The notes under the pieces are model-generated. The model was not told where the DNA came from and searched no databases. It worked only from the letters and a program-made list of their open reading frames with translations. DNA of 33,343 nt. It comes from Geobacteraceae bacterium (GTDB taxonomy: Bacteria; Desulfobacterota; Desulfuromonadia; Geobacterales; Pseudopelobacteraceae). The stretch spans positions 1 through 33,343 of the forward strand of contig JANXZX010000029.1 of assembly GCA_025355325.1 (NCBI GenBank). The letters are read 5' to 3'. This document shows, in pieces, positions 4,177 to 33,262 of this stretch; position 1 is the stretch's first letter; each line of letters opens with the position of its first letter. The position numbers were made by a program, and so were the translations under genes.

Positions 4177-7100
4177 ATGATCCTCTCCAATACCTCCATA
4201 AAGCGCCCTATTTTTGCCACGGTCATGATTCTGGCTCTGGTCGTGCTCGGAATATTCTCCTATCGCCGCCTTTCGGTCGAAATGTTTCCCAATGTCGAGT
4301 TTCCGATTGTCTCTATTGTCACCACGTACACCGGCGCTTCGCCTGAAACGGTTGAACGTGAGCTTTCCAAGCGGATTGAGGAGGCGGTCAACCAGATTGC
4401 GGGAGTAAAGCATGTCTTCTCCACATCGCGTGAAGGCGTCTCGACGGTCGTGATTGAGTTCCGGCTTGAGGAAAAGGTTAACGATGCCGCCCAGGAGGTA
4501 CGGGCGAAGATTTCCTCCATACGCGGTACCCTGCCGACCTCCATTGATGAACCGATCATACAGAAACTTGACTTTAATGCGGCGCCCATTGCCGCATTGG
4601 CTGTTGAGTCAACGACGTTGTCGCCGCGCGAGCTGACGACGCTGGTGGAGAAAAAGATCAAGAAACGCTTCGAAAGTGTCGCCGGAGTCGGCAAGGTCGA
4701 TATGGTCGGCGGGCAAAAGCGCGAGATAACGGTCGATCTCGACCCGGTCCGACTGGATGCCCTCAAGTTAGGAGTCAACGACATCGTCTCCGGCATTCGC
4801 TCCGAAAACACCAACACGCCGCTTGGGCGAATCACCAAGGGGACGGCAGAGTACCCGCTACGGATTGAAGGAAAGCCGGATCGCGCCGACCAGTACCGCC
4901 GGATGGTCGTAGCCCAGAGGAATGGCCGCCCGATTTCGTTAGGCGAGGTTGCACTGGTTGGCGACGGAATTGAGGAAAAGCGCAAACTGGCACAGGTCAA
5001 CGGCAAACCGGCCATCGGACTCGATATTTACAAACAGTCAGGCGGCAACCAGGTTGAATTGGTCGATACGGTCAAAAAAGTTATGGCCAAGGTTCAAAAA
5101 GAGTTGCCACCGGGTGTGACCCTTTCCCTGGTGCGCGACGGTTCGATCATGACCCGTGAATCACTGGCTGACGTCAAGCAGACCCTGATCATCGGCGGGA
5201 TCCTGACGGTGCTGATTGTTTTCTGCTTCATAAACTCCTGGCGCTCCACCGTTATTACCGGCGTAACGCTGCCGATTTCGGTCATCTCCTCATTTATCAT
5301 CATGAATGCGCTCGGCATGACGCTCAACGTCATGACTCTGATGGCACTTTCACTGGCAATCGGCATGCTGATCGACGACGCCATCGTGGTTCGCGAGAAC
5401 ATCGTCCGGCATCTGGAAATGGGTAAAGACCATATGGAGGCATCCCGGTTCGGTACCTCGGAGATCGGCCTGGCTGTGTTCGCCACCTCCATGTCGATTA
5501 TTGCGGTGTTCGTTCCGGTGGCGTTCATGAAGGGCATCGTCGGTCGTTTCTTTTACCAGTTCGGCATCAGTGTCGCCTTTGCCGTGCTGGTGTCGCTGTT
5601 CGTTTCCTTCACTCTCGATCCGATGCTTTCATCCCGCTGGCATGACCCGTCGATTCACCTGCAGGGGCACCGCGTAGGAATTGCCCGCTATCTGGAAATG
5701 TTCAATACCTGGTTTGATAAAACTGCAGACAAGTACAGGAGCGCCATCGCCTGGGCTCTGGATCACCGCAAGAGCGTCATGGGACTTGCCTTCGTAGCCT
5801 TTGTCACCGGGATCTATATCTTCAGTACACTGGAGTCATCTTTTATGGCACCGGAGGATAAGGGAGAATTTCAGATCGCCTTCAAAACCGCGCCGGATGC
5901 TTCCATAACAGAAACCGAAAGCCGGATGAATGCGGTACTGACGGCGGTTAAAGTGGCGCCGGAGGTTGACCATACCTACGCCACAATCGGGGCCGGAGAC
6001 AGTGGGACAGTACGCGATGGCCTGCTCTACGTGAAACTCAAGGAACGCTCGGAACGTACCAAGAACCAGTTTCTGCTGCAGCGGGAAGTGCGGGAACGCT
6101 TGCAGAAGATCGCCGGCATCACCTTTTCCATCGAGGAGGTCGGCCAGATTGGCGGGGCGCAGAAACCGCTCAACGTCAACCTCAAAGGGGATGACCTTGC
6201 CGTCCTGAAACAGCTCGGCGCGCGCTTGAAAGAGGAGCTTTACAAAGTGCGCGGCATCGTCGATATTGCTATGACGCTGGAGAATGACATCCCCGAATAC
6301 CGCATGCGGGTTGATCGGGACAAAGCGCTGTCAGCCGGAGTCACCACCAATGATATCGTCGGAGCGATCAGTCGTCTGGTGGGGGGAGAGGCAATCTCTA
6401 CCTATGAGGATGAAGATGGTGATGCGGTCAACCTGCGGGTACGCCTTCCGGCTCATTTGAGAAATAACGCGGCCCAGGTTCTGGATCTGAATGTCTCAGT
6501 GCCTGACGGAGCCGGCGGCATCAAACTTCTGCCGATATCCAGCCTTACCACCACGGTGGTGGCCGCCTCGCCCACCGAGATTAACCGGCGTGATCTTGCC
6601 CGCCAGGTAACCATCAGCGCCAATCTCGACCGGCTGCCGGTCGGCACGGCCGCCAAGTACGTTGAGGCGGCCTCAAAAAATATCAACATGCCCCCCGGCT
6701 ACTCCATCAACCTGTCGGGTGAGGCCGAAGACATGGCCGAATCGTTTGGCTACATGGGGGAATCGCTGCTGCTGGCGGTACTGTTTGTTTACCTGATTCT
6801 GGCCGCCCAGTTTGAATCGTTCTTCGAACCGCTGGCGATCATGTTCTCCCTGCCGCTCTCCATCGTCGGTATGGCCGGAATGCTTAAGTTGACCGGCGAC
6901 ACAGTCAACATCATGTCGCTGATCGGCCTGATCATGCTGATGGGGCTGGTGACCAAAAATGCCATTCTGCTGGTCGATTATGCCAAAGTTCTGCAGCGTC
7001 GCGATGGCATGGAACGCCGCGCGGCGGTTATTCTGGCCGGTCGCACCCGTCTCCGTCCGATTATCATGACGACGCTGGCGATGATTTTCGGCATGATGCC

Positions 7101-7305
7101 GCTCTTTCTGGCGCTCGGCGCCGGAGCGGAAGGACGCGCACCTATGGCCCGCGCCGTAGTTGGCGGGCTTCTGACGTCAACCATGCTGACACTGTTGGTG
7201 GTGCCGGTCATGTACACCCTGATGGACGACCTGGGTAGTTGGCTGAAACGGAAATGGAAAGGGAAAGTTATGCCGGAACATGTTGCGGTGGAGCATTCTG
7301 ATTGA
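4177..7305 (+). CDS. RND family efflux pump permease (HAE1/AcrB type)
   Basis: This inner-membrane proton-driven exporter is 1042 residues, the usual size. It starts IKRPIFATVMI (first transmembrane helix), followed by a large periplasmic porter loop, a helix block, a second loop and a second helix block, the internal duplication typical of the family. The proton-relay residues are present: two aspartates in helix 4 (GMLIDDAIVV, D400 and D401) and the helix-10 lysine (GLVTKNAILL, K927). An AAGGA (4166-4170) precedes the ATG. It belongs with tetR, the adaptor and the small CxxC protein. The channel partner is probably the TolC-like gene at 11864, now separated by three other genes. Substrates are not deducible; hydrophobic drugs or solvents are usual for HAE1. 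Confidence 0.96.
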   Translation: MILSNTSIKRPIFATVMILALVVLGIFSYRRLSVEMFPNVEFPIVSIVTTYTGASPETVERELSKRIEEAVNQIAGVKHVFSTSREGVSTVVIEFRLEEKVNDAAQEVRAKISSIRGTLPTSIDEPIIQKLDFNAAPIAALAVESTTLSPRELTTLVEKKIKKRFESVAGVGKVDMVGGQKREITVDLDPVRLDALKLGVNDIVSGIRSENTNTPLGRITKGTAEYPLRIEGKPDRADQYRRMVVAQRNGRPISLGEVALVGDGIEEKRKLAQVNGKPAIGLDIYKQSGGNQVELVDTVKKVMAKVQKELPPGVTLSLVRDGSIMTRESLADVKQTLIIGGILTVLIVFCFINSWRSTVITGVTLPISVISSFIIMNALGMTLNVMTLMALSLAIGMLIDDAIVVRENIVRHLEMGKDHMEASRFGTSEIGLAVFATSMSIIAVFVPVAFMKGIVGRFFYQFGISVAFAVLVSLFVSFTLDPMLSSRWHDPSIHLQGHRVGIARYLEMFNTWFDKTADKYRSAIAWALDHRKSVMGLAFVAFVTGIYIFSTLESSFMAPEDKGEFQIAFKTAPDASITETESRMNAVLTAVKVAPEVDHTYATIGAGDSGTVRDGLLYVKLKERSERTKNQFLLQREVRERLQKIAGITFSIEEVGQIGGAQKPLNVNLKGDDLAVLKQLGARLKEELYKVRGIVDIAMTLENDIPEYRMRVDRDKALSAGVTTNDIVGAISRLVGGEAISTYEDEDGDAVNLRVRLPAHLRNNAAQVLDLNVSVPDGAGGIKLLPISSLTTTVVAASPTEINRRDLARQVTISANLDRLPVGTAAKYVEAASKNINMPPGYSINLSGEAEDMAESFGYMGESLLLAVLFVYLILAAQFESFFEPLAIMFSLPLSIVGMAGMLKLTGDTVNIMSLIGLIMLMGLVTKNAILLVDYAKVLQRRDGMERRAAVILAGRTRLRPIIMTTLAMIFGMMPLFLALGAGAEGRAPMARAVVGGLLTSTMLTLLVVPVMYTLMDDLGSWLKRKWKGKVMPEHVAVEHSD

Positions 7306-7373: not shown

Positions 7374-8336
7374 ATGCAGGCAAATAGTAACAAGACCCGC
7401 CAATGGAAGGCCGATATCGCCCAATCCGTCGATATGTACAACGTATGGTTCATGAGCTTCGCGCCGGTGGCTTTCCGCGAAACTCGTATCCGGACGACTA
7501 AGGACGTTGAGGCTGCTCTTGTTTCTACCCGTTATTTGACCGACATTTCTCCAGCAATTTTCCGCACCAACCCGGATATTCTCCCGACGCTCCGTATGTC
7601 CACATGTCCTCCGCTCGCTGTTGACCGGTTGATCGGTTTGGCCGGAATATCGGCCAGCATGGTAAAACGCATGGAAAATGAGAAAAAGCTGCCCGTGAAG
7701 ATGGCATACGATGATGTTGACCGGGAACTCGGCAAAATCGGGGCGATCATTGAGAAAATGGCCGATCCTGATATCTTCGTCTGGCTAGAGCAGAAAAAAT
7801 CTCCTGCCAAAGCAGAGATCCACAGAGCAGCCACTATTGTTGCCGACCGCCTCTGCGGATCGGTCGCAAACCCGATCATCCGCAACGCTCAGGAAAAACG
7901 GCAGCTGGCAGCAATCAAGTCTTGGCTTGAGGAACGCGGCTACACTCAGATTCCAGCTGGCAACGGAACCCGCTTTGATGCAATGTCACCCGGAACCTTC
8001 AGTTTTCGAATGAACGTACCGGTTAAACTTGAAAATGGCGTGCAGAGCGTAAATATTCCGGTTGACGCCGTCATCATGCCGAAAAATGCTAAGGCCAAGC
8101 AACTACCACTCTTCTTTGAAGCCAAATCTGCCGGTGACTACACAAATACGAACAAGCGCCGCAAGGAAGAGGCCGTGAAAATGGCACAACTCCGCAGCGC
8201 CTATGGCAGAAAAGTACAATTCAACCTGTTCCTGTGCGGCTACTTTGACAGCAGTTATCTCGGTTACGAGGCTGCCGAAGGTATCGACTGGGTGTGGGAA
8301 CATCGCATCGACGATCTGGCACTTTTCGGTATTTGA
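7374..8336 (+). CDS. XamI-like type II restriction endonuclease
   Basis: The 320-residue product resembles the XamI restriction endonuclease family, whose founding member cuts GTCGAC. A PD-(D/E)xK-type core is readable: D231 in VNIPVDAVI and E249-A-K251 in PLFFEAKSAG, followed by a conserved-looking basic stretch (TNTNKRRKEEA). The N-terminal two-thirds is helical and probably reads DNA. GGAGG (7365-7369) precedes the ATG. The cognate methyltransferase starts three bases after the stop. A weak promoter (TTGAAA at 7302, AT-rich -10 near 7323-7330) may sit in the short gap after the pump gene. No controller (C) gene is visible. The family call is from pattern recognition; the actual recognition site is inferred. 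Confidence 0.82.
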   Translation: MQANSNKTRQWKADIAQSVDMYNVWFMSFAPVAFRETRIRTTKDVEAALVSTRYLTDISPAIFRTNPDILPTLRMSTCPPLAVDRLIGLAGISASMVKRMENEKKLPVKMAYDDVDRELGKIGAIIEKMADPDIFVWLEQKKSPAKAEIHRAATIVADRLCGSVANPIIRNAQEKRQLAAIKSWLEERGYTQIPAGNGTRFDAMSPGTFSFRMNVPVKLENGVQSVNIPVDAVIMPKNAKAKQLPLFFEAKSAGDYTNTNKRRKEEAVKMAQLRSAYGRKVQFNLFLCGYFDSSYLGYEAAEGIDWVWEHRIDDLALFGI

Positions 8337-8339
8337 TAC

Positions 8340-9926
8340 ATGGCAAATACAATCGACATATTAGAAAAACAGCGACTCAACATCCAAGCCGAACTAGACC
8401 GCCGTAAAACGCAGGCAGAGCGGAACCGTCTTGGGCAGTTCGCGACGCCAACAGTCCTTGCCCGTGATATTCTGGAATACTCCGCCACGCTTTTTGCCCC
8501 AGAGGAACAGGTGCATTTTCTCGACCCGGCTATTGGCACTGGTGCCTTCTATTCAGCGCTACTCAACACATTTCCGGAACAGCGGATAGCCGAAGCCATC
8601 GGTTTTGAGATAGACCCACACTACGGCCTGCCAGCTTCCGAGATCTGGCAGAATGCCGGGTTAAACCTGAAGCTCTCAGACTTTACACACGAAGAACCGA
8701 CTTCCCGTTTTAACCTCATAATTTGTAATCCGCCATACGTCCGACATCAGCATCTGCTTGGCAGAGACAAAGACCGGCTGCAATTACGAACTTTCAAAGC
8801 TAACGGTATGAAACTTAGTGGACTTGCCGGGTTATACTGCCATTTCATTGGTCTTGCCCATGCCTGGATGGCAGAAGATGGGGTTGCGGGATGGCTGATC
8901 CCGAGCGAATTCATGGATGTGAACTATGGCCAGATAGTGAAGCAATATCTCCTTAGCCGTGTCACACTCCTGCACATCCATCGTTTCGATCCCAGCGACG
9001 CACAGTTCTCCGACGCCCTGGTGTCATCCAGCGTTGTTTGGTTCCGGAATACTCCTCCCCCTCCCGGTCACAACGTAACGTTCAGCTTTGGCGGAACATT
9101 GTCAGCCCCCAAAATTTCGAGGCAAATTCCGGCAAAAGTGCTTGTCCATGAGGCCAAGTGGACACGTTTCCCCCTTTCTGAAATTCGGAGCCGCAAGGTG
9201 GTTCCGACGATTGCAGACTTCTTCCGGATCAAACGTGGCATCGCCACCGGTGACAATGGTTTTTTCATTTTTAAAGAAGCGGACATTATTGCCCGTGGTT
9301 TGCCAATGGAGCTGTTCCGACCAATACTTCCGAGTCCACGTTACCTGCCCGAGGACGAGGTTTCTGCCGACAGGGATGGTAATCCGCAGGTTGGGCGACG
9401 TCTTTTTTTGCTGGACACACGTTTGAGCGAGGATGAGATTAGATGCAGTTTTCCAACCTTGTGGGCATATTTTGAGGAGGGGAAAGCCAGCAGAGTTCAC
9501 GAAGGATATATTTGCAGCCACCGTTCTCTCTGGTATGTGCAGGAAAATCGGCCAACTGCGCCTATCGTCTGTACCTACCTTGGGCGTGGAGATGCGAAGA
9601 GCGGGCGTCCATTCCGGTTTATTCTGAACAATTCTCAGGCGATCATCGCCAATGTCTATCTCGCCATGTATCCGACTCCACTGCTTTTGCGCTATCTGTC
9701 GCGTGATCCGGGTTTAATCCGCCGAATCTGGCAGGTGCTGAACGCCATGACACCGCAGCAGCTTCTTGATGAGGGGCGGGTTTACGGCGGCGGGTTGCAC
9801 AAGTTGGAGCCGAAGGAACTTGCCAATGTGGATGCATCGGCAATTGCGGCGCTACTACCCGGGTTTAAGCGGGGTGCGGAGTTGACGCAGTTGGATATGT
9901 TTGGTCATCAGAATTTAGCGGCATGA
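8340..9926 (+). CDS. N6-adenine DNA methyltransferase of the XamI-like system
   Basis: This is a class I SAM-dependent DNA methylase that would protect the host from the adjacent endonuclease. SAM motif I is DPAIGTGAF (D62 on), and the catalytic motif NPPY is at residues 130-133, which marks N6-adenine (amino) methylation. Motif order (SAM site before NPPY) fits gamma-type enzymes, with a target-recognition region in the C-terminal half of the 528 residues. It follows the endonuclease by three bases with only a weak ribosome site, so translation may depend on coupling to the nuclease. Having nuclease first and methylase second is less common. Its stop overlaps the start of pabBC (ATGA). Function is firm; the target site is inferred. 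Confidence 0.92.
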   Translation: MANTIDILEKQRLNIQAELDRRKTQAERNRLGQFATPTVLARDILEYSATLFAPEEQVHFLDPAIGTGAFYSALLNTFPEQRIAEAIGFEIDPHYGLPASEIWQNAGLNLKLSDFTHEEPTSRFNLIICNPPYVRHQHLLGRDKDRLQLRTFKANGMKLSGLAGLYCHFIGLAHAWMAEDGVAGWLIPSEFMDVNYGQIVKQYLLSRVTLLHIHRFDPSDAQFSDALVSSSVVWFRNTPPPPGHNVTFSFGGTLSAPKISRQIPAKVLVHEAKWTRFPLSEIRSRKVVPTIADFFRIKRGIATGDNGFFIFKEADIIARGLPMELFRPILPSPRYLPEDEVSADRDGNPQVGRRLFLLDTRLSEDEIRCSFPTLWAYFEEGKASRVHEGYICSHRSLWYVQENRPTAPIVCTYLGRGDAKSGRPFRFILNNSQAIIANVYLAMYPTPLLLRYLSRDPGLIRRIWQVLNAMTPQQLLDEGRVYGGGLHKLEPKELANVDASAIAALLPGFKRGAELTQLDMFGHQNLAA

Positions 9927-21624: not shown

Positions 21625-21889
21625 AATGGGAAAAAACTAAGCAGGTTATTGCGTACCCCCTCGCTGTACCGTACTGGGCGAGCATGATACAGCCAAAATG
21701 TCATGATGATTGCTAACGAGTGCAACTGTATTGGATATCAGGTAGCTGATGGACAATCAGGCAGAGTGTGCGCTGTAGTTTTCAACGACTACATGACGTT
21801 CAAATTTAGCTTCACACTGGCAGGATCTGACCGATACCGCCGAAAAAGCATCAATAACAGTTATCTTTGCTATCTGCGCGACTGGATGA

Positions 21890-22078
21890 TGGATTGTAAC
21901 TCTATCGAAGCGGAGCGCCCGCACCAATGGCATCCAATCTCAACTCGACATTCTCTGCGAATACTGCCAGTTCGAGTTCCCGTCAGCACCTGCAAAATAT
22001 TTCTACCGTGGCACCTACGACACCAGCGAGCATGACGTCATTGAAAAGATCGACAATGCACCCATAAAGTCCGGTTGA
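21890..22078 (+). pseudogene. Possible remnant of a protein-coding gene
   Basis: A 62-codon open stretch following an in-frame TGA (21887-21889) translates to protein-like text, for example DILCEYCQFEFPSAPAKYFY and RGTYDTSEHDVIEKIDN, ending in TGA at 22076-22078. There is no start codon with a ribosome site, and the same frame upstream is broken by stops. It reads like the C-terminal end of a decayed gene. I do not recognise the family, and it could be chance. Confidence 0.35.
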
Positions 22079-22091
22079 ACAATCTGGTCTC

Positions 22092-22133
22092 GTTCATACC
22101 GGGTACGACAGGTGATGTGCACGATTGGGCGAC
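22092..22133 (+). repeat. Imperfect direct repeat, left copy
   Basis: This 42-bp stretch matches 27327-27371 in the same orientation at 36 positions, with one 3-base gap. The shared core is CAGGTGATGTGCAC. The two copies bracket the AT-rich four-gene cassette. Confidence 0.65.
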
Positions 22134-22562: not shown

Positions 22563-23792
22563 ATGAAAAAGCTGATATGTATCGTCCTGTTCCCATTAGT
22601 ATTATTAGTTGGTTGTGGTGATGGTAGTACATCCGCTCCATCAAAAGTTACCTACTCTGACAGTGCAGGGAAAGGAACAATGGGAAACTATACCAATGCG
22701 GACTGGCTCTACCAAAACTACTTTGGTGATTACGGGGTGCCTGCGGAATTCAAGCAATCATTCATGCCGGCTATTAAGATGCTGGCAAATGGTTTTGCCT
22801 TGCAGTTGAATAGAAATGATCCAAAGCAAGGCGATGATATCAAGGGAAACATCGAATATTTTCATAAACAATTTTTGCAATTTGTAGCAAGTGGAGAGGC
22901 CGCTCAGTATGTTAAATCAATGTCTGAGCCACGACCCCAACCACCCATAAACCCTGACATACCTCGCTTAACAGCCGCTGAGCAGGAAGAACGGATTAAA
23001 AATTATGTTCCTCCTCCGATGTCTGATGATGCAAAAAAGGCCGTGGCCGAAGCGATGGCTGAGGACGAGCGGGTGCGCGCTGAAGTCAAAAAAACTGCTG
23101 CTGATTACAAATTACCATACACAATCGAAGGACGAGATGAACAGTGGTTTATCTATTCGCCGACAATGAAAGGCAAAGGCAGACCTGCCTCTGCCCCAGC
23201 TCCAGTCGCCACTACCAAAAGTACTGATGAGATTAATAGATGGAATTGGCGTATGGGGGACATTATATGGTCTAATGGTTCAACACTATCAGGTGTTGCA
23301 GGACATGTTGGTCTGGTTGATACCACTAACACTTTGGCCCCTCCACGGGCAATAGAGGCAAACACTGCAACAGACTATGGAAAAGGAGTGGTAGTGTTTC
23401 CAAATTTGAAGATATGGTCAGACCGCCCCTACACTCAGATAAAGGGTTATTCTCCGAAATTGGGTTGGAATCCTTCCGAAGGGGACACTGCGCGCGTATG
23501 GGTGCCGCCGATATGGGCATGGGCGGGTTATTGGGACACTAGAACTACAGATAGTGGTCATAGAAGAGCTGCAATTAAATATGCCAATCAACAATTAGGT
23601 AAGCCTTACAACTACATCTTTTGGGATGCGTACAACTTCACAAAATTTTATTGTTCGCAGTTGGTATGGGGTATGTATTATTTGACCGGCTGGGAAATCC
23701 TTGAATCCCCCTTACAATACTACACTGTTGTAACACCAGCGCAAGTCACTAATTCAATAAAAACAACCATGTTTAATTCATTTTCAAAATGA
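22563..23792 (+). CDS. Lipoprotein with YiiX-like permuted papain (NlpC/P60-related) domain
   Basis: The ATG at 22563 follows AAGGAG (22552-22557) and starts a lipoprotein signal (MKKLICIVLFPLVLLVGC, C18). The middle is Pro/Lys/Glu-rich and probably helical. The last 180 residues match the circularly permuted papain-like fold of YiiX/YebB-type proteins: GDIIWSNG, AGHVGLVDT with H248, an acidic AIEAN (E265), then QLGKPYNYIFW and FYCSQLVWGMYYLTG with C364. In permuted members the His precedes the Cys, as here. Known or proposed activities are amide, peptide or thioester hydrolysis, often at the cell wall or on lipids. It overlaps the next gene by four bases and is the first gene of the cassette. 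Confidence 0.78.
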   Translation: MKKLICIVLFPLVLLVGCGDGSTSAPSKVTYSDSAGKGTMGNYTNADWLYQNYFGDYGVPAEFKQSFMPAIKMLANGFALQLNRNDPKQGDDIKGNIEYFHKQFLQFVASGEAAQYVKSMSEPRPQPPINPDIPRLTAAEQEERIKNYVPPPMSDDAKKAVAEAMAEDERVRAEVKKTAADYKLPYTIEGRDEQWFIYSPTMKGKGRPASAPAPVATTKSTDEINRWNWRMGDIIWSNGSTLSGVAGHVGLVDTTNTLAPPRAIEANTATDYGKGVVVFPNLKIWSDRPYTQIKGYSPKLGWNPSEGDTARVWVPPIWAWAGYWDTRTTDSGHRRAAIKYANQQLGKPYNYIFWDAYNFTKFYCSQLVWGMYYLTGWEILESPLQYYTVVTPAQVTNSIKTTMFNSFSK

Positions 23793-25015
23793 TAGTCAAA
23801 TATATTCTGTTAGTAGTAGCCACCTGTTCACTTACTGCCTGTGATAAATCCGTAAATAGAACGGAGATCAGAATCAAGCCGGTCAGTTGTGAAAACTCGT
23901 TTGCCATGACCGACAGCCAACAGGTGTGGTTGTTTGATTTCAAGCCCAAGGGGGAAGAATTATTCCAGTCATTTCATCTAAAATACGATCAACAGGCGTC
24001 AGCATCCAACGTAAACTACTTATGCCAGACTAAAGAACTGGCGGTAGGTTATGCCTTTAGAGGAAAATCTGGTGGAGATGCTGGGATAGATTTTATTGGT
24101 GAGAAGGATTTTTACAATATTGAGATCAAACCGGACAGCTTTGGCCTGATGCTTACAATTGGGCAGGAATTGTTCGTCTATACGGCATTGGTTAAGAGAG
24201 CCGAAATTGACCCGGGTATTGGAGCAATGACAAAAGAAGAATATGCCCCAAAGTCAATGTCCCCACCGTCTCAAGTGTTTAGAGAAGAAAAACCACCTTC
24301 AGCAGATTCATCGGAGCATGTTTATATTGATATGCTCGCCATCAATTTGAATAGTCATAAAGTTGACAGAAAGCTCCGGTTTCCGACCTCAATCGGACTG
24401 CCAATGTGGGTTGAAGGTGACAATTTTATTGTCTATAACGGTACGCCACTAGCAATCAATACCCAAAATGGGCATAGAAAGATAAAGGTCGATAATTTTA
24501 ATGACCTCCAAGCTTTTCACGAGTTTAGAGTACGTGGTCACTATTACAACAATAATTTTTATGTGATTGTTGGTAAAAGACGTAGCGACTCAACCGAAAA
24601 GACCAACATAACGCCCGACTCAATCTATGTTCACAACAACTCAACAAGCAGCTGGGACAAGATTGCTTCTCTGAATTTTGATCCTGTGCATGTCACCGGT
24701 TTCCAAAATGAAATTGTGATCTTCGGACTAGGTTCTTTTGCACGGTTTGATATTGCGAAGAACAAGCTGGTTTCGGAAAAGAGGAATTTTGAAGGGATGG
24801 AAGTGACTGCATCGACAAGGATAAAGGATGGTCGTGTGTTGTATTTGTCACATCCAGGTACTAAGGAAAATACCTACGGTGGTGGCGAGTTGTGGGTCTA
24901 TGATTCCGCCTGGGGCAAGGTGATCACCAAACATAAATTTGATGATATCGGGTTGCCGAGCATAACGTCGCAGTTATCATCATTCCCGTCAGAGGTGTCA
25001 TACAACTCGTTATAG
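23789..25015 (+). CDS. Lipoprotein of unknown function
   Basis: The ATG overlaps the stop of the YiiX-like gene (ATGA), so the two are coupled. A lipoprotein signal (MIVKYILLVVATCSLTAC, C18) is clear. The 390-residue mature part is rich in beta-type patterns and repeated short strand-turn stretches (for example DNFIVYNGTPLAINTQNGHR and FQNEIVIFGLGSFARFD), which suggests a propeller-like fold; this is inference, and I do not recognise a family. No catalytic motif is visible. Tight coupling suggests it works with, or restrains, the upstream hydrolase. Confidence 0.85.
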   Translation: MIVKYILLVVATCSLTACDKSVNRTEIRIKPVSCENSFAMTDSQQVWLFDFKPKGEELFQSFHLKYDQQASASNVNYLCQTKELAVGYAFRGKSGGDAGIDFIGEKDFYNIEIKPDSFGLMLTIGQELFVYTALVKRAEIDPGIGAMTKEEYAPKSMSPPSQVFREEKPPSADSSEHVYIDMLAINLNSHKVDRKLRFPTSIGLPMWVEGDNFIVYNGTPLAINTQNGHRKIKVDNFNDLQAFHEFRVRGHYYNNNFYVIVGKRRSDSTEKTNITPDSIYVHNNSTSSWDKIASLNFDPVHVTGFQNEIVIFGLGSFARFDIAKNKLVSEKRNFEGMEVTASTRIKDGRVLYLSHPGTKENTYGGGELWVYDSAWGKVITKHKFDDIGLPSITSQLSSFPSEVSYNSL

Positions 25016-25033
25016 ATCAGGAGTCAGTCTGAA

Positions 25034-25594
25034 ATGTGGAACTTCTTAACAAAATGGGACTTCTTCAAGGTGCTGGTTAGTGGTTATACCTTGGTTTCTG
25101 CCTGTTTATTGGCATTTATGGTTGCCAAGCTGCATATTGAAATGTGGAATTTTTCCAGAGCGTGGAGTCTCATAGAGATGTTTGTTGCTGGTTACTTCCT
25201 GGTTCCTGGCTATGTAGTGGCAATTTTTATAATACTCAGGAAGAAACCCAAAATGTGGAGCATCATCAGAAAATGGGATATTTTAAGGGTAATTGTTGTT
25301 GGGTACACCTTGGTATCCATGATTATCCTGGTGATGTCATTATTTGGCAGGACTCCGGAAGCAGGAGGTGGCGAGGTAGTCATGGTGATGACTATGCTTT
25401 CAATGCCTTCAAGTTACTTAACCGGCATGTTTCTGAACTACATTGACTACATGTCACCGCCAATAATTAGCAGCTTACCTGGCAGGGCTCAATTGTTTAT
25501 GGTCTGGTTTCCCTTTTTTCTCGGTGGGCTGCTTCAATGGGGAGCGCCTTATATGATTTCGCGGCTACTTACAAAGAACCACAAAATTATGTAG
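25034..25594 (+). CDS. Membrane protein with three copies of a 36-37 residue unit
   Basis: This 186-residue inner-membrane protein contains three tandem units starting at M1, M37 and M74. Each begins MWN or MWS, has Trp seven residues after the Met (W8, W44, W81), then Gly-Tyr (17-18, 53-54, 90-91) and a Leu-Val, followed by a hydrophobic membrane span. A fourth hydrophobic region at about 110-130 and a fifth near 155-180 complete it. AGGAG (25019-25023) precedes the ATG by ten bases. No known family is recognised. It lies between two lipoprotein genes on the same strand. A role as membrane anchor, channel or immunity protein would be a guess. Confidence 0.85.
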   Translation: MWNFLTKWDFFKVLVSGYTLVSACLLAFMVAKLHIEMWNFSRAWSLIEMFVAGYFLVPGYVVAIFIILRKKPKMWSIIRKWDILRVIVVGYTLVSMIILVMSLFGRTPEAGGGEVVMVMTMLSMPSSYLTGMFLNYIDYMSPPIISSLPGRAQLFMVWFPFFLGGLLQWGAPYMISRLLTKNHKIM

Positions 25595-25640
25595 TACACA
25601 TCGCTATAAGGCCGATCATGAAGTTGACACCGACAGAAGT

Positions 25641-25668
25641 TAGGCGCCTTACCGGAGGGAGGCGCCTA
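25641..25668 (+). other. GC-rich hairpin between membrane-protein and protease genes
   Basis: TAGGCGCC (25641-25648) pairs perfectly with GGCGCCTA (25661-25668) across a 12-base loop, followed by TTTGTT. The purine-rich ribosome site GGAGGGAGG (25654-25662) lies in the loop and the first bases of the 3' arm. It could be a weak terminator for the upstream genes or a structure that gates translation of the protease. Confidence 0.5.
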
Positions 25669-25674
25669 TTTGTT

Positions 25675-27186
25675 ATGACAGACATTCCGCATTTGTTATT
25701 TGCCATGTTTTGCCTTGTCAGCATGACACTCGGAATAGCTGGCTGTGGTGACAGTTCATCATCCTGGCAGGAAGACCCGCTTGCAAAAGAACAATGGTAT
25801 TTGACCGGCGATCCGAGCGACGCGGCAATTATTCATATCAACTTGCCGACACCATCGAAGTACACCGGGAGGGGCGTAATAGTTGCGGTCGTGGACAACG
25901 GGATTGACCTTAACCATGAAGATCTGGCAGCCAATATTGAGTGGGGCAATTTCAGCTATCTTCCTGAAGAGTATGATTTTTCAAATGCAGATCATGGTAC
26001 TGCCGTGGCCGGCATTATTGCCGCTGTAGCAGGTAACGGTATTGGCATACGCAGCATAGCACCAGACGCCAAACTGCTCTCCTTTAACGCTATTCGCACA
26101 CCTTCCATAGAAAATATTGCGAACGCTCTCGTCAGAGAAAAAAATCGTGTATCAGTTTCCAATAACAGTTGGGGAGATTTTAATAGCTGGGGGGAGCCTC
26201 TTGGCTTACGAAGTGTGATTGAATCTGCATTACAGGAAGGCACTAGTACAGGAAGGAATGGCAAGGGCATTGTCTACATATTCTCTGCCGGGAATGGCGC
26301 GACTATAGACGCAAACGGTATTCCGTCCGACAATGTGAACTATAGCGGTCTGGTCAATAACCAATACACCATTCCGGTTTGCGCTTTGGACCCCTATGGG
26401 AAAAAAGCTGGCTACTCTGAAACTGGTGCAACATTGGTGATTTGCGCGCCATCGAAGGACAAGGACAGCACGAGAGGAATTGTCACAACGGATGTGACCG
26501 GTGAACTCGGCTACAACTCAAGCACCAGCAAAAATGAAGAGGAAAAAACGAACTACACCAGAATTTTTGGTGGAACTTCAGCGGCTGCCCCGATGGTTTC
26601 AGGTGTGGCGGCACTGATGCTGGAGGCAAACCCTGATCTCTCCTGGCGAGACGTCAGATATATCCTCGCAAAATCAGCCAGGCAAAACGACCCTCAACAT
26701 CCGGATTGGACAACAAACAGCACCGGATTACACATCAACCATTCGTATGGCTTCGGCCTCGTTGATGCCGCTCAGGCTATCAAGTTATCAGAATCCTGGG
26801 CACCAATTGCTCAAGAAAAAAACATTGAGTTTGAAGCCATCGTAGATACACCCATTCCTGACAATGATGTGTCCGGGATTACACATGAACTGAATGTACC
26901 TGATGATATAACTGTTGAGTTCGTCGATATCTTCTTTAATACACCGGACCATCCTCGCCTGGGTGACCTTGAGGTTATTCTTATATCACCGTCAGGTACC
27001 CGAAGTATTTTGTCTGAAAGACACAATCAAACCTTTGAAGTATTTCGTTACTATAACTGGCGTTTTGGGTCAATACGTCACTTGGGGGAATCCTCCAAGG
27101 GCAGTTGGAAGCTTGAAGTACGAGATAAACGGATTGGTGAAGTTGGGACATGGAAAAGCTGGAAAATGAAAATACACGGTTTCTGA
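25675..27186 (+). CDS. Subtilisin-like (S8) serine protease lipoprotein with P domain
   Basis: From the ATG at 25675 the protein is 503 residues, with a hydrophobic leader ending in lipobox GIAGC (C24). The catalytic triad is complete: D74 (VAVVDNGIDL), H107 (DHGTAVAGIIAA) and S302 (GGTSAAAPMVSG), and the oxyanion Asn is N207 (SAGNGA). A P (proprotein convertase) domain of beta type closes the protein from about residue 410 (HPRLGDLEVILISPSGT, ending KSWKMKIHGF), as in kexin-like proteases. The start is uncertain: an in-frame ATG at 25618 would add 19 residues including two RR pairs, giving a basic N-region. There is no obvious propeptide. Probably anchored to the outer membrane. Confidence 0.88.
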   Translation: MTDIPHLLFAMFCLVSMTLGIAGCGDSSSSWQEDPLAKEQWYLTGDPSDAAIIHINLPTPSKYTGRGVIVAVVDNGIDLNHEDLAANIEWGNFSYLPEEYDFSNADHGTAVAGIIAAVAGNGIGIRSIAPDAKLLSFNAIRTPSIENIANALVREKNRVSVSNNSWGDFNSWGEPLGLRSVIESALQEGTSTGRNGKGIVYIFSAGNGATIDANGIPSDNVNYSGLVNNQYTIPVCALDPYGKKAGYSETGATLVICAPSKDKDSTRGIVTTDVTGELGYNSSTSKNEEEKTNYTRIFGGTSAAAPMVSGVAALMLEANPDLSWRDVRYILAKSARQNDPQHPDWTTNSTGLHINHSYGFGLVDAAQAIKLSESWAPIAQEKNIEFEAIVDTPIPDNDVSGITHELNVPDDITVEFVDIFFNTPDHPRLGDLEVILISPSGTRSILSERHNQTFEVFRYYNWRFGSIRHLGESSKGSWKLEVRDKRIGEVGTWKSWKMKIHGF

Positions 27187-27562
27187 ATAATTTTGAATGT
27201 TCTCAACCCCATAACGACAGGATTCTGGACACCTGATTAATACGGCACCTTACAGCACCCACATCATAATTGATATTGTTGGTTCGTTAAAGTCAAACCT
27301 TCGAAGTCGATATCTTTTACAGGTTTGTTCGGAATGCCGGGGACGGCAGGTGATGTGCACTGTTGGGTGACTATCAGGATTAAATCCCTCCCAAAAATTC
27401 TTCCGCGTGTTTCTTCTTGCCAATCGAGCTACTTTCATTAATAATTGTCCCGTTATAAACTGTAGTTTTTTCGCTACGGAAATATGTCCCGTGGCGTGAA
27501 AAACCTACCTGCCAGCATCTTGAAGAATCAATCCGAACAGTCGAGTTCCACGGAGAACGTTT
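27187..27562 (+). other. Non-coding stretch after the protease cassette
   Basis: About 375 bp without a credible gene. It contains the right copy of the direct repeat (27327-27371), and GC rises again toward the next gene. A 62-codon minus-strand frame (27250-27438) includes the repeat but has no ribosome site or other sign of coding. Confidence 0.6.
27327..27371 (+). repeat. Imperfect direct repeat, right copy
   Basis: This 45-bp stretch is the partner of 22092-22133 (36 matches, one 3-base gap, same orientation). It lies about 140 bp after the last cassette gene. It may mark the end of an acquired segment. Confidence 0.65.
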
Positions 27563-28804
27563 TTGAGTAATTCCAGCTATCTTATGGGCAGGCAACCAAT
27601 TCTGAACGGACTTGAAGAGGTCGTCGGCTATGAGTTGCTCTTCCGCTCGCCTCAATCCACTTCTTCGGCCGTTATTCTCGACTCCTTCCAGGCAACGTCC
27701 AGTGTCATCTTTAACGTACTATCCAATTTCGGTATCGGCGAAATCCTCGGTGAACATCGGGGATACATCAATGTCGATGCCGATATGCTGATGAATGAGA
27801 GCCTTGATCTGTTGCCACGGGGTGTGATTGGCCTGGAACTGCTTGAAAGTGTTAGAATTACTCCAGAAATAACCGATCGGTGCCGGCAGCTGAAAGAGGA
27901 GGGCTTTGTTCTGGCCCTTGATGATCATCGTTTCAATCCGGAATATGAAGAACTGTATAGCGGGCTTATAGATATCGTCAAATTTGACCTGATAGCCACG
28001 CCTCTGGATGAGTTGTATCAGGAGATTGAACAGCTGCGCCATTTTCCGGTCAAGCTCCTTGCTGAGAAGGTTGATAGCCGGCACGTATACCTTCGCTGTC
28101 GCAGGATGGGGTTTGAACTTTTCCAGGGATACTTTTTTGCCAGGCCGTCACTGATGCAGAAATCTCGGATGGAAAACTCGTCCGGTACGTTTTTACGGCT
28201 GATGCAGCAATTGTCGAATAATGCCGAAATCGACGAAATAGAGGAAACCTTCAAGCAGAGCCCGGCGCTTACCTACAAACTCCTGTTACTGGTAAACTCC
28301 GTCTCCCTTTCTACGCGGGAAAAGATTCGCACGGTACGCCACGCAATCACCCAGATCGGTTTTGCCCATCTCAACCGCTGGGTGCAGCTTGCTATTTTTG
28401 CCGACGATAGCGGTACGGGACTAAACGGCGCCCTCCTTGACATGGCTGCAGTCCGTGCGGCTTTTATGGAGGAACTTTCCCGCCTGGAACCTCGAAGTTC
28501 CCGGTTGTTGCGCCATGCGCACCCCGATCAGGCGTTCATGGTCGGCACCCTGTCAATGCTGAAAGATATCTACGACGTGGATTTAAAGCAGATTGTATTG
28601 CAATTGAATTTGTCGGACGAAATACAGGATGCCCTGCTGAGCCGGGAAGGAGATCTGGGGACGTTGCTCTGTCTGGTGGAGATGATGGAATTGCTGGAAC
28701 TCGACGAGGCCGCGGAAGCTCTGGAAAAGCTGGGCATCACCATCGAAAGTGTCATTGCCTGTCAGAAAAAGGCGTATAGTTGGCGGAGCAAGCTGGGGTT
28801 GTAA
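27563..28804 (+). CDS. EAL-HDOD signalling protein (YuxH-like)
   Basis: The start is TTG, supported by GGAGA (27552-27556) six bases upstream; the next in-frame ATG (27584) has no ribosome site and would remove residues before the conserved MGRQPI. The 413-residue protein has an EAL-type domain (about 8-200) and an HDOD domain (about 205-400). The EAL domain keeps E24 (YELLFR), LELLES, LDD, VKFD, AEK and QGYFFARP, but the DDFG loop reads DDHRF and the usual Glu of the loop-6 region is Asp, so activity is doubtful and c-di-GMP binding or protein regulation is more likely. The HDOD (QSPALTYKLLLLVNS) resembles HD domains without hydrolase residues. Confidence 0.92.
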   Translation: MSNSSYLMGRQPILNGLEEVVGYELLFRSPQSTSSAVILDSFQATSSVIFNVLSNFGIGEILGEHRGYINVDADMLMNESLDLLPRGVIGLELLESVRITPEITDRCRQLKEEGFVLALDDHRFNPEYEELYSGLIDIVKFDLIATPLDELYQEIEQLRHFPVKLLAEKVDSRHVYLRCRRMGFELFQGYFFARPSLMQKSRMENSSGTFLRLMQQLSNNAEIDEIEETFKQSPALTYKLLLLVNSVSLSTREKIRTVRHAITQIGFAHLNRWVQLAIFADDSGTGLNGALLDMAAVRAAFMEELSRLEPRSSRLLRHAHPDQAFMVGTLSMLKDIYDVDLKQIVLQLNLSDEIQDALLSREGDLGTLLCLVEMMELLELDEAAEALEKLGITIESVIACQKKAYSWRSKLGL

Positions 28805-30623: not shown

Positions 30624-31760
30624 ATGCGTATAATCGCCTTATTACTCCTGGCATTCTTCATCGGCATTACTCCGGCGAATGCAGCACATGAACCGGTAAC
30701 AGTCACCGGAACGGGACTGACATCACTCTCCAATGTCAAAAAAGCAGCTTTGAGTGATGCGCTTTGCGCTGCCGTCAGAGAGGTGATCGGGGTGCAGGTC
30801 AAGAGCGAAACCCTGGTAAAAAACCTCCAGCTCATCAATGACAAAATCATTACCAAATCTGACGGGTATGTAAAGAAATGGGATGTTCTGAAGGAAGATA
30901 CCCAAGGCGCTGAGTATATCATTACCATCAAAGCATGGGTTGAAGAGGGAGCCCTCAACAAAGACCTGTTCATGAACGGAATTGAAGTTGAACAGGTATA
31001 TGACTGGGCAGGCAAGCCAAGAATACTTGTTGTTATTTCGGATTACATCGATGGCAAAACGAGCCTGACAGCATTTATGCAGCCGCAACTGGAGGGTCTG
31101 CTCAAAAACAAAGGGATGACTATCCTGAGCGGAGAGCAACTCAAAGCCATAAAAACACGGGATGTGGAGCTGGCAGCAAAGAATTCTGACAAGGCAATTG
31201 CGCTTGGGAAACGCTTTGGGGCGGAAATCGTAATTGTGGGCAAGACCGTCTCAACGTTTAGTCGTGCGCTGGATGTCGAAGGTTTCAAATACTACTTCTA
31301 CACCACCCAGTTCGATGCCAAAGCCTACCGCACCTCAAACGCAGAAATTCTCCTTTCCAAAGTCTATACTGAAACAAAAAGCGAACAGGACACCAGCGCC
31401 ATGGGCAAGCACGATGCCGCAGTGCGCTCCATCAGCAACACACTCGATCAGCACGCCCAGGATATTGTCTATAATGTGGTTAAACACTGGTACGATGGCA
31501 TGAGCAAGGCCAGCACCTACCAATTGATTATTTCCGGCGTAAAAAGTCAGGAAGTTACCGCGCTGTCGTCCCTCATTACCGCTTTACCGGACGTTTCCGC
31601 TGTCCACCGCCGCAGTTTCAACCGCGGTGTGGCAGAGTTGGAGGTCGAATTCCTTGGCGTCCAGTCATGCCTGATTGAAGCCCTGGAAGGCAACCAGAAG
31701 ATTCCCCTCGATGTGGTTAGTGACGAACCATTCCGTATCAATCTGGAGAAACGCAAATGA
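30624..31760 (+). CDS. FlgT/LPP20-like periplasmic protein
   Basis: The ATG at 30624 begins a proper signal peptide (MRIIALLLLAFFIGITPANA); an in-frame ATG at 30612 would add four residues. The mature N-terminus (about residues 25-115) has the pattern seen in FlgT N-terminal/LPP20-type domains: ALSDALCAAVREVIGVQVKS, ETLVKNLQLINDKI, KSDGYVKKWDV and YIITIKAWVEEGAL. A second domain (about 125-250) looks alpha/beta, as in the TolB/CsgG-like middle domain of FlgT (RILVVISDYIDG, FGAEIVIVGKTV). FlgT is a flagellar H-ring protein, but here there are no flagellar genes, so the true role may be a different envelope complex. The stop overlaps the WD40 gene start. Confidence 0.8.
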   Translation: MRIIALLLLAFFIGITPANAAHEPVTVTGTGLTSLSNVKKAALSDALCAAVREVIGVQVKSETLVKNLQLINDKIITKSDGYVKKWDVLKEDTQGAEYIITIKAWVEEGALNKDLFMNGIEVEQVYDWAGKPRILVVISDYIDGKTSLTAFMQPQLEGLLKNKGMTILSGEQLKAIKTRDVELAAKNSDKAIALGKRFGAEIVIVGKTVSTFSRALDVEGFKYYFYTTQFDAKAYRTSNAEILLSKVYTETKSEQDTSAMGKHDAAVRSISNTLDQHAQDIVYNVVKHWYDGMSKASTYQLIISGVKSQEVTALSSLITALPDVSAVHRRSFNRGVAELEVEFLGVQSCLIEALEGNQKIPLDVVSDEPFRINLEKRK

Positions 31761-33262
31761 TCATCCACTCTATCGCCCTGTTGCTCTCTGTTGCAGTCAT
31801 GCTCATTTCCGTACCGTCGTCACATGCGCGCCAATCCAGCATAGTGGAACTTGCCGGTAAAGGTACCGGCCTGGTGGCTGTTGTCAGTAAAAAAGGGGCT
31901 GAGGACTATACCGAGTATGCCGAAGGTTTGCTTAAAGAGCGGCTGCAAAAGCTTAATTTCAAAGTATTGAACAAGGAACAGGCCGATAAAGCAAAAAAGG
32001 ATCGTCTCCTGATGGAGGCGATCAAAAATCAGAGCGCTTCTGCCATGGCTAAAATCAGTTCCGAATACGGTGCAGCGTTCCTGGTGCGCGCCACTCTACA
32101 GTCCGTTGCAAGTCACGAAAAGATGGGCTCGTGGGAGGGGGGAAGTTCCTTCTCTCTTCTGGTTATCGATACAAAGACCGGAGAAGAGGTAATCAATGTG
32201 GTCAGTGAGCCGATGGGCACGCCTGATAATCCGGCACCCATGGAGGACTCATCTCTGGCGGCAAAGCAGATGGCAATAAGTAAGGCGGTGGATAGCGTCC
32301 TCACCAAAGTCGGCGCTGACTCGGAAACTCTGTCACAGTTATCCAGTATTACGGCCAATTATCATTCCGCATTTTCCACTGACGGCAGACTTGTCAAGGC
32401 TCAAATTTTCTCTCCTGACAGCACACAACTGCTGTCAGCTCTTGAGGACCGACTGGAAGTATACTCGCTGGAAAGCAAAGAGAAGGTCAAGTCCATAGAA
32501 AGTCCGAAGGGTGACATTATCTCCCTGGCCTTCTCCCGCAACGGAACAACTCTGGTAGCCGGCACCAAGAAGGGGTATCTCATTGTGTGGAGCTGGCCTG
32601 ATCTGAAGGTTAAGCATGTTTTGGATGCCCACAGCAAAGGGACACAAAGTGTTGATATCACCCCGGACGGCCGACTTGCAGTCTCTGCCGGAGGCGACGG
32701 CAAGGTGAAATTCTGGGATGTAGCCAGCGGGCGCCAAACTGCCAAGATAGACGCTCACGACGAGCGCATTTTACGGGTATCCTTCGATGCTGGCGCCCGT
32801 AATATTGTAACGGTCAGCGAAGATTTATCCATTCGCTTCTGGGACATCAACACAAGAAAAGAGACACGCTCATTCAAAGAGTCGATGGATCGTATCGAGT
32901 CAGCCATCTTAAACAAGGATAAGACAATTCTCGCCTGTGCAACAAGGACGATTGAGATCGACCTTTTGCGAAAAAGACGCATGGATAAACGGTATATCCG
33001 GCTGCGCGACCAAGTCTCAGGACGGGATATTTTCACATTTGAAGGGCATTTGAAAGATATTAACGATATTGATTTCTTTCCAGGCAGGAGATTCGTGGTG
33101 ACAGGCTCATCAGATAAGACCGTTAAAGTTTGGGACATTGAAAAACGTGGTGAAGTGGCGTCCCTCGACTGCAGCAATAAAGTCACTTCGGTGGCGATCA
33201 GCAATGATGGAAAGTATCTGGCTGCTGCAAGCTCAGAAATTCAAATCTGGAAATTCAAATAG
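31757..33262 (+). CDS. Periplasmic WD40 beta-propeller protein with alpha/beta N-domain
   Basis: The ATG overlaps the previous stop (ATGA). A signal peptide (MIIHSIALLLSVAVMLISVP, cleaved near SHA) exports it. Residues about 30-185 form an alpha/beta domain like the CsgG/TolB-N/FlgT type (EDYTEYAEGLLKERLQKLNF, AKISSEYGAAFLVRATLQSV). Residues about 205-501 are WD40 repeats, for example DGKVKFWDVASG, DLSIRFWDINT and SSDKTVKVWDIEKRG, enough for about seven blades. The order alpha/beta domain then propeller is also that of TolB. WD40 proteins are scaffolds; a complex with the FlgT-like partner is plausible. Partners and role are inferred. Confidence 0.9.
   Translation: MIIHSIALLLSVAVMLISVPSSHARQSSIVELAGKGTGLVAVVSKKGAEDYTEYAEGLLKERLQKLNFKVLNKEQADKAKKDRLLMEAIKNQSASAMAKISSEYGAAFLVRATLQSVASHEKMGSWEGGSSFSLLVIDTKTGEEVINVVSEPMGTPDNPAPMEDSSLAAKQMAISKAVDSVLTKVGADSETLSQLSSITANYHSAFSTDGRLVKAQIFSPDSTQLLSALEDRLEVYSLESKEKVKSIESPKGDIISLAFSRNGTTLVAGTKKGYLIVWSWPDLKVKHVLDAHSKGTQSVDITPDGRLAVSAGGDGKVKFWDVASGRQTAKIDAHDERILRVSFDAGARNIVTVSEDLSIRFWDINTRKETRSFKESMDRIESAILNKDKTILACATRTIEIDLLRKRRMDKRYIRLRDQVSGRDIFTFEGHLKDINDIDFFPGRRFVVTGSSDKTVKVWDIEKRGEVASLDCSNKVTSVAISNDGKYLAAASSEIQIWKFK

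Follow-up and report, generated by a model that had tools for sequence, protein, structure and literature searches.

Bacterial surface subtilases are known that work together with proteins encoded beside them. In the three-gene dentilisin operon of Treponema denticola (PrcB-PrcA-PrtP), two auxiliary lipoproteins are encoded first and a subtilase lipoprotein last, and the two upstream-encoded lipoproteins act together with the surface subtilase (PMC8167434). ASP of Aeromonas sobria is a kexin-like, propeptide-deficient protease that needs the chaperone ORF2, the product of a separate adjacent gene (PMC5638518). The cited parts of both reports indicate that subtilases of this kind may rely on proteins encoded alongside them. 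Here we describe a locus of a Geobacteraceae bacterium (GenBank assembly GCA_025355325.1, contig JANXZX010000029.1; the whole stretch of 33,343 nucleotides (nt) that was analysed is called the window) in which a subtilase lipoprotein gene is preceded by genes for a papain-like C92 (YiiX-like) lipoprotein and a fast-diverging second lipoprotein. We infer that the three genes of this apparently acquired module specify a lipid-anchored enzyme complex in the envelope which would work like dentilisin, a reading held tentatively and at somewhat under even probability.

In such a complex the furin-like subtilase would be made without a folding prodomain of its own, and the two co-encoded lipoproteins would probably see to its assembly and placement. 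The second, propeller-like lipoprotein may act as scaffold or bind the substrate, and the C92 lipoprotein would add a second activity, the cutting or transfer of an amide or ester bond in a substrate that is either acyl or peptide in nature. The complex would serve to process or degrade proteins, be they of the envelope or external. The proposal is supported by the same module order in a Comamonadaceae metagenome-assembled genome (MAG; locus L008) and, split over two contigs, in a Burkholderiales MAG (L010 and L016), by the last two genes in a Hydrogenovibrio MAG (L009), and by P0004 having no prodomain and none being found in the genome that contains the window (G000). The genes of the locus are:

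22563-23792, + strand: gene 1, C92/YiiX-like permuted-papain lipoprotein (P0001, 409 amino acids)
23789-25015, + strand: gene 2, fast-diverging middle lipoprotein, probably a beta-propeller (P0002, 408 amino acids)
25034-25594, + strand: gene 3, membrane protein built from a unit repeated three times (P0003, 186 amino acids)
25675-27186, + strand: gene 4, furin/kexin-like S8 subtilase with P-domain, lipoprotein (P0004, translated from 25618)

All four genes lie on one strand, as a preliminary description of this DNA had stated. The frames of genes 1 and 2 share 4 nt, a gap of 18 nt separates gene 2 from gene 3, and gene 4 (start 25675) lies 80 nt beyond the end of gene 3. Their G+C content is 0.42-0.47 versus 0.51-0.52 in two measured flanking genes. 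Gene 3 looks like an accessory or local extra, and the recurring module looks to consist of the C92 gene, the middle lipoprotein gene and the subtilase gene.

P0004 matched the S8 subtilase model with 149.9 bits and the P-domain PF01483 with 67.7 bits (residues 444-518), and its catalytic residues are D93, H126, N226 and S321 in the numbering from 25618; the subtilisin-P-domain lipoprotein with full triad that had been proposed for gene 4 was thus found. The reading frame is open upstream as far as 25537. A start at 25675 puts the lipobox cysteine at residue 24 and is the likelier one, since this cysteine stands at residue 15-20 in three relatives; S321 then becomes the S302 of the preliminary description. 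Furin aligned with residues 52-519 of P0004, over catalytic domain and P-domain (E 1.2e-54), kexin aligned as well (E 1.3e-47), and A. sobria ASP was among the matches in the PDB (3hjr, E 1.2e-40). The furin-type catalytic domain starts at residue 52, only nine residues after the lipobox cysteine; P0004 therefore has no N-terminal prodomain, and no prodomain-like stretch was found within the window. In the printed alignment, N189 and S243 of P0004, both invariant in a five-member subfamily, occupy the positions of furin D258 and D306, the S1-pocket aspartates for basic P1 residues. P0004 thus appears to have a convertase fold without the basic specificity pocket.

P0001 carries a lipobox and reached 29.8 bits on Pfam Peptidase_C92 (gathering cut-off 27) in a local match confined to residues 333-373; its L008 homologue scored 26.6 bits, just under the cut-off. 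The catalytic positions H248, E265 and C364 named in the preliminary description were recovered. H248 and C364 are invariant in both homologues found, and E265 is replaced by aspartate in both. The fourth catalytic residue of the family is a tyrosine according to the cited part of PMC3142127; its counterpart is Y349, which aligns with the tyrosine of the KPY motif of YiiX (shifted by one residue in the L016 homologue), so that P0001 shows the permuted order His, acid, Tyr, Cys of YiiX (PDB 2if6). A conserved N-terminal domain (about residues 30-203), for which Pfam gave no match, precedes the catalytic part (about 225-409). This domain is better conserved than the catalytic part, with 82/164 versus 60/168 identities to the L008 homologue and 55/161 versus 46/174 to that of L016, as if it bound a conserved partner. 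In the linker, K203, G204 and G206 are invariant in the three sequences; cleavage of this linker at a basic site by the furin-type subtilase was rejected because the S1 aspartates are missing.

Overall the homologues share 30-42% identity with P0001. Searches gave none beyond the own genome among the 141 genomes of the order, and at E<=0.01 matches in 4 of 395 genomes of the phylum, namely the own genome and three weak partial ones (two to the C92 core, one to residues 1-53). A scan of genome collection contigs with P0001 yielded 12 stretches, none of them a relative; the same scan missed the 40% identical L008 homologue, and such scans thus miss members. A fold search with a poor structure model of P0001 returned no match at E<=0.001.

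According to the cited part of one source, little is understood of what YiiX-like enzymes act on physiologically (PMC7387801). YiiX binds a fatty acid, and cleavage of acyl-amide bonds, those of lipoproteins included, has been proposed as its activity (PMC3142127); LnsA of Staphylococcus, a permuted NlpC/P60 enzyme of the same group, acts on lipoproteins at the membrane, together with LnsB in their N-acylation (PMC7387801). For the C92 enzyme of the module, a lipid or acyl-amide substrate would be as likely as a peptide. These precedents also favour lipoprotein remodelling or release, in which the C92 enzyme would remove, add or swap an acyl chain and the subtilase would cut the same substrates, shedding or maturing them. 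We regard this as unlikely: nothing in the module was recognisable as a substrate gene, and P0003, without a Pfam match, offers no LnsB-like partner of the CPBP type.

The recurrence of the module was assessed with the subtilase. Scanning the genome collection with P0004 returned 45 pattern matches and seven loci, of which four show 52-60% identity and the other three 31-34%; loci L012-L014 were left out of the neighbour comparison. Subtilase identity is 52-60% across the window, L008, L009, L010 and L011, the last from a Troglogloeales MAG whose contig is cut at the subtilase. Within the class, the subtilase profile matched at E<=1e-60 only the own genome (1/195). In L008 the C92 gene, the middle lipoprotein gene and the subtilase gene overlap by 4 nt at both junctions, and no membrane gene stands between them. 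L010 starts at its contig end with middle-type genes, followed by the subtilase gene, and in the same MAG a C92 homologue (E 2e-39) lies on L016, where the next gene is of the middle type and is cut off by the contig end; the two contigs are inferred to join because their middle genes are 77-93% identical. In L009 the middle gene, a gene for a 144-amino-acid secreted protein and the subtilase gene follow each other, with 88 nt between the middle gene and the contig end on its upstream side. The C92 profile matched six of 399 genomes of the L008 order, that of L008 strongly and five weakly (E 4.7e-6 to 5.1e-4). Within reach of the searches made, the module is rare and patchy.

The preliminary description had asked for co-occurrence of four families. 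Three of them occur together in L008, in L010/L016 and, for the last two genes, in L009, so that the refuting case of homologues that never co-occur is false for these three; the membrane protein did not recur with them. Its author further knew of no described system with this set. For two lipoprotein hydrolases this agrees with our survey of titles and opening abstract lines of the open-access literature, in which no set of a C92 and a subtilase lipoprotein was described; the membrane gene has to be dropped from the set.

Several further features were seen at these loci. The Burkholderiales MAG carries tandem copies of the middle gene with 77-93% mutual identity (L010 1-3396 and L016 2887-3759), and a gene for a LuxR-family regulator lies just upstream of its C92 gene (L016 652-1419). 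Genes for a PIN-domain protein (at the Pfam cut-off) and a PemK/MazF-like toxin are found upstream of the L008 module (394-1446, - strand). This module is bracketed by a duplicated part of an alpha/beta-hydrolase gene (1862-2409 and 6579-7129), whose copies are 91% identical (498/548 nt).

Gene 2 was indeed a coupled lipoprotein of no recognised family, as had been suggested: its frame overlaps that of gene 1 by 4 nt, and P0002 had no Pfam or NCBIfam match at E<=1. Its relatives within the phylum were limited to the own genome (1/395). Alignments to the L008 and L009 proteins gave z scores of 8.7 and 7.3 (0/500 shuffles each) and BLASTP E values of 2e-5 and 5e-5 as single comparisons. The middle-protein pair P0006 and P0008 reached z 2.0, alone not significant, the Burkholderiales protein against that of L009 a marginal z 3.7 (1/500 shuffles), and profile comparisons among the middle proteins were weak (E 0.0041, 0.25 and 0.0023). 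Identity to P0002 is 15-20%, and the lipid-type cysteine and two further cysteines are common to five aligned middle proteins. Judged from these comparisons, homology appears good for three of the proteins and positional for the Burkholderiales ones. A fold search with a poor model of P0002 returned 60 matches at E<=0.001 with TM-scores of 0.09-0.33; many of the 50 displayed are beta-propellers, including surface lipoproteins of the BtuG type. This lends weak support to P0002 being a beta-propeller, its probable fold. At its N-terminus (window 23789-23845) an aspartate follows the lipid cysteine, the corresponding residue being alanine in L008 and valine in L009; in Escherichia coli, aspartate at this position favours retention in the inner membrane.

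The product of gene 3 is, as described before, a triplicated-unit membrane protein. Its three units of 36-37 amino acids each hold one hydrophobic segment, and the unit pairs scored 61-84 against maxima of 38-41 in 1000 shuffles per pair. P0003 had no Pfam match at E<=1, no match among plasmids or viral contigs, and in 31 genomes a best match besides itself of E 0.0175. The repeat membrane gene is absent from the L008, L009 and L010 loci. With these absences and no significant relative in the searches made, P0003 was rejected as a core part of the module, and its place in the originally proposed set was given up.

The surroundings of the module show the marks of an insertion. Its borders are:

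21703-22133, + strand: decayed DRAT gene, its final 38 nt (22096-22133) being the left repeat copy
27334-27371, + strand: right copy of the 38-nt DRAT 3' end with 84% identity, lying 191 nt upstream of the EAL-HDOD gene

A whole-genome search with 27180-27563 found only these two repeat places at E<=0.001. That the repeats are unrelated to DRAT was considered and dropped, as they encode the DRAT C-terminus in one frame. The downstream EAL-HDOD gene has relatives in 34 of 39 genomes of the genus. Among ten loci around its best relatives, seven have an intact DRAT frame (265-312 amino acids) directly upstream, one of which was checked by Pfam (383 bits), and DRAT was not found upstream of EAL-HDOD in the other three (L058, L064 and L065). 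The gap from DRAT to EAL-HDOD is about 120-220 nt at the relatives versus 191 nt from the right repeat in the window, and seven of the ten loci are without the module. The flanking repeat and the relatives with an intact DRAT adjoining the EAL-HDOD gene together argue that an insert of about 5.2 kb came in at the 3' end of DRAT, leaving a copy of that end on each side. Integrating elements are known to insert at gene ends in this manner. The arrangement is att-like, and Pfam recognised no recombinase among the four genes that fill the insert. From this comparison the three-gene module was apparently acquired horizontally.

Carriage as phage or plasmid cargo was rejected, since the C92, middle and membrane proteins had no plasmid match and none in viral contigs. 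The plasmid search gave no match for P0001, P0002, P0003 and P0005, the phage search none for P0001 (P0002 and P0003 were not searched there), and the viral contigs none for P0001-P0004, A2 (the subtilase profile) or A3. P0004 matched 85 records of plasmids, with identities of 24-34% among the 30 that were listed, and 11 of phages, with 27-30%. Rfam gave 0 matches in this analysis.

An acquired insertion would also suit an antagonistic role, in which the C92 protein would be a phospholipase that damages the membranes of neighbours after the subtilase has released or activated it, and gene 3 would provide local immunity. A precedent is the C92-related Tox-Act1, an antibacterial phospholipase whose immunity protein is membrane-associated (PMC12994826). 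The C92 lipoprotein has a signal peptide but no recognised export or delivery domain, and gene 3 is missing from the other loci; we consider antagonism decidedly improbable. The self-protection by the coupled lipoprotein or the membrane protein that had been suggested found no evidence. Phage defence, for instance by receptor cleavage or an IetAS-like protease system, appears very improbable. It could draw on the insertion in a variable site, on the PemK/MazF-like and PIN genes near L008 and on weak partial matches of gene 4 to IetS models (27 bits or less, the best a short one), but all three module proteins are envelope lipoproteins, genes 1-3 had no PADLOC match and an ATPase partner is lacking. 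Gene 4 was hit in PADLOC as a generic subtilase (69.5 bits), and the defence role raised in the preliminary description gained no evidence.

How related subtilases are supplied with a prodomain was followed in Nitrospirota, where 8 of 198 genomes matched the subtilase profile at E<=1e-60, that of L011 and seven distant ones. Four of the seven distant loci were taken into the neighbour comparison (G1111, G1050 and G1068 were left out). In three of these four, a separate gene directly after the subtilase lipoprotein gene encodes a domain that is fused N-terminally in the fourth. A profile of the four prodomains matched the 144-amino-acid protein of L009 (E 2.8e-16). The family is located at:

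L009 1344-1778: subtilase prodomain family
L031 6243-6971: subtilase prodomain family
L032 4831-5493: subtilase prodomain family
L034 8961-9593: subtilase prodomain family
L033 6818-9220, - strand: subtilase prodomain family

The prodomain is thus a separate gene up- or downstream of a lipoprotein subtilase in four genomes and fused in one. Of eight genomes searched with it, four (the Nitrospirota ones) contained it, and it was not found in G000 (99.84% complete) or in the MAGs G527 (L008), G528 (L010) and G529 (L011). As a recognisable prodomain remnant, the C92 protein was rejected (hhalign E 0.069 and 0.029, both confined to the signal peptide's region), as was the middle protein (hmmsearch, E 0.6-0.7 for P0002). 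A bolder form of the complex, which we rate as doubtful, would have the prodomain replaced by the co-encoded lipoproteins, most likely by the N-terminal domain of C92. The papain-fold hydrolase would then be both membrane-anchored assembly factor and brake of the furin-fold protease, in an envelope machine of two enzymes that has spread in the form of a small insertion.

Transcription of the four genes may be interrupted before the subtilase gene by one further feature:

25641-25668, + strand: hairpin between genes 3 and 4, possible terminator or regulator

It is terminator-like and folds better than all 200 shuffles (z -3.64), and the apparent Shine-Dalgarno sequence of the subtilase sits in its loop, so that the hairpin may attenuate or regulate the subtilase. 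With such a strong hairpin in the 80-nt gap, one simple four-gene transcript is not assured. A terminator scan (2 sites versus 5.8 in shuffles) and a promoter scan (15 versus 13.9) stayed near or below the shuffles and are no evidence.

Several results weigh against a dentilisin-like complex. The hairpin may separate the subtilase from the rest of the module, the L011 genome has the subtilase and no C92 match, and the four distant Nitrospirota loci have no C92 or middle-type match nearby. L008 is the sole other complete, ungapped module locus found. The Burkholderiales middle protein did not reach significance against P0002 (z 1.7; hhalign E 0.25), and the two single-sequence structure predictions were poor (mean pLDDT 37 and 35). 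L009 holds both the middle gene and the prodomain, and the middle gene is therefore no prodomain substitute there. The hairpin and the L011 genome speak for envelope hydrolases that move together but act independently, outside any complex, and serve nutrition or competition by general breakdown, as does the very unequal divergence of the three proteins (identities to the window's proteins of 52-60% for the subtilase, 30-42% for C92 and 15-20% for the middle protein). Against this stands a gene order that recurs across phyla, with overlaps in L008, and we see independent hydrolases as an unlikely explanation.

Elsewhere in the window, a XamI-type restriction endonuclease gene is followed by an Eco57I-type methylase gene (7374-9926), and a 501-amino-acid WD40-repeat protein is encoded at 31757-33262.

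Among described systems, dentilisin resembles the proposed lipid-anchored complex in gene order. It differs in that PrtP is made with its own prepropeptide (PMC8167434) whereas P0004 has no prodomain, and in that the cited part of the dentilisin report describes no C92 enzyme (PMC8167434). On the PrtP family model NF033595, P0004 scored 59.3 bits against a cut-off of 300, and no NCBIfam match naming PrcA or PrcB was obtained for P0001-P0003, the PrcA and PrcB sequences themselves not being compared. ASP shares with P0004 the kexin-like, propeptide-deficient form; unlike the ASP/ORF2 pair, the module has no prodomain or ORF2-like gene in the window, and no prodomain was found in G000, a genome in which ORF2 itself was not searched. 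ORF2 was also not among the PDB matches of the separate L009 prodomain. Furin and kexin (S8B) differ from P0004 by their prodomain and by the two aspartates discussed above. YiiX lacks the extra conserved N-terminal domain of P0001 and its linkage to a subtilase, and LnsA works with a CPBP-type membrane partner that is missing from the module. In all, the locus appears to combine known parts in a combination that was not found described, and to provide a comparative series for prodomain loss. If the proposal is true, it adds a form of envelope protease complex in which a subtilase is joined by an enzyme that probably acts on lipids or amides. The natural series of prodomains that are fused, encoded separately, or missing beside partner lipoproteins would make the trade from an internal to an external chaperone testable, and the linkage of C92 to a protease would offer a handle on the substrate of YiiX-like enzymes.

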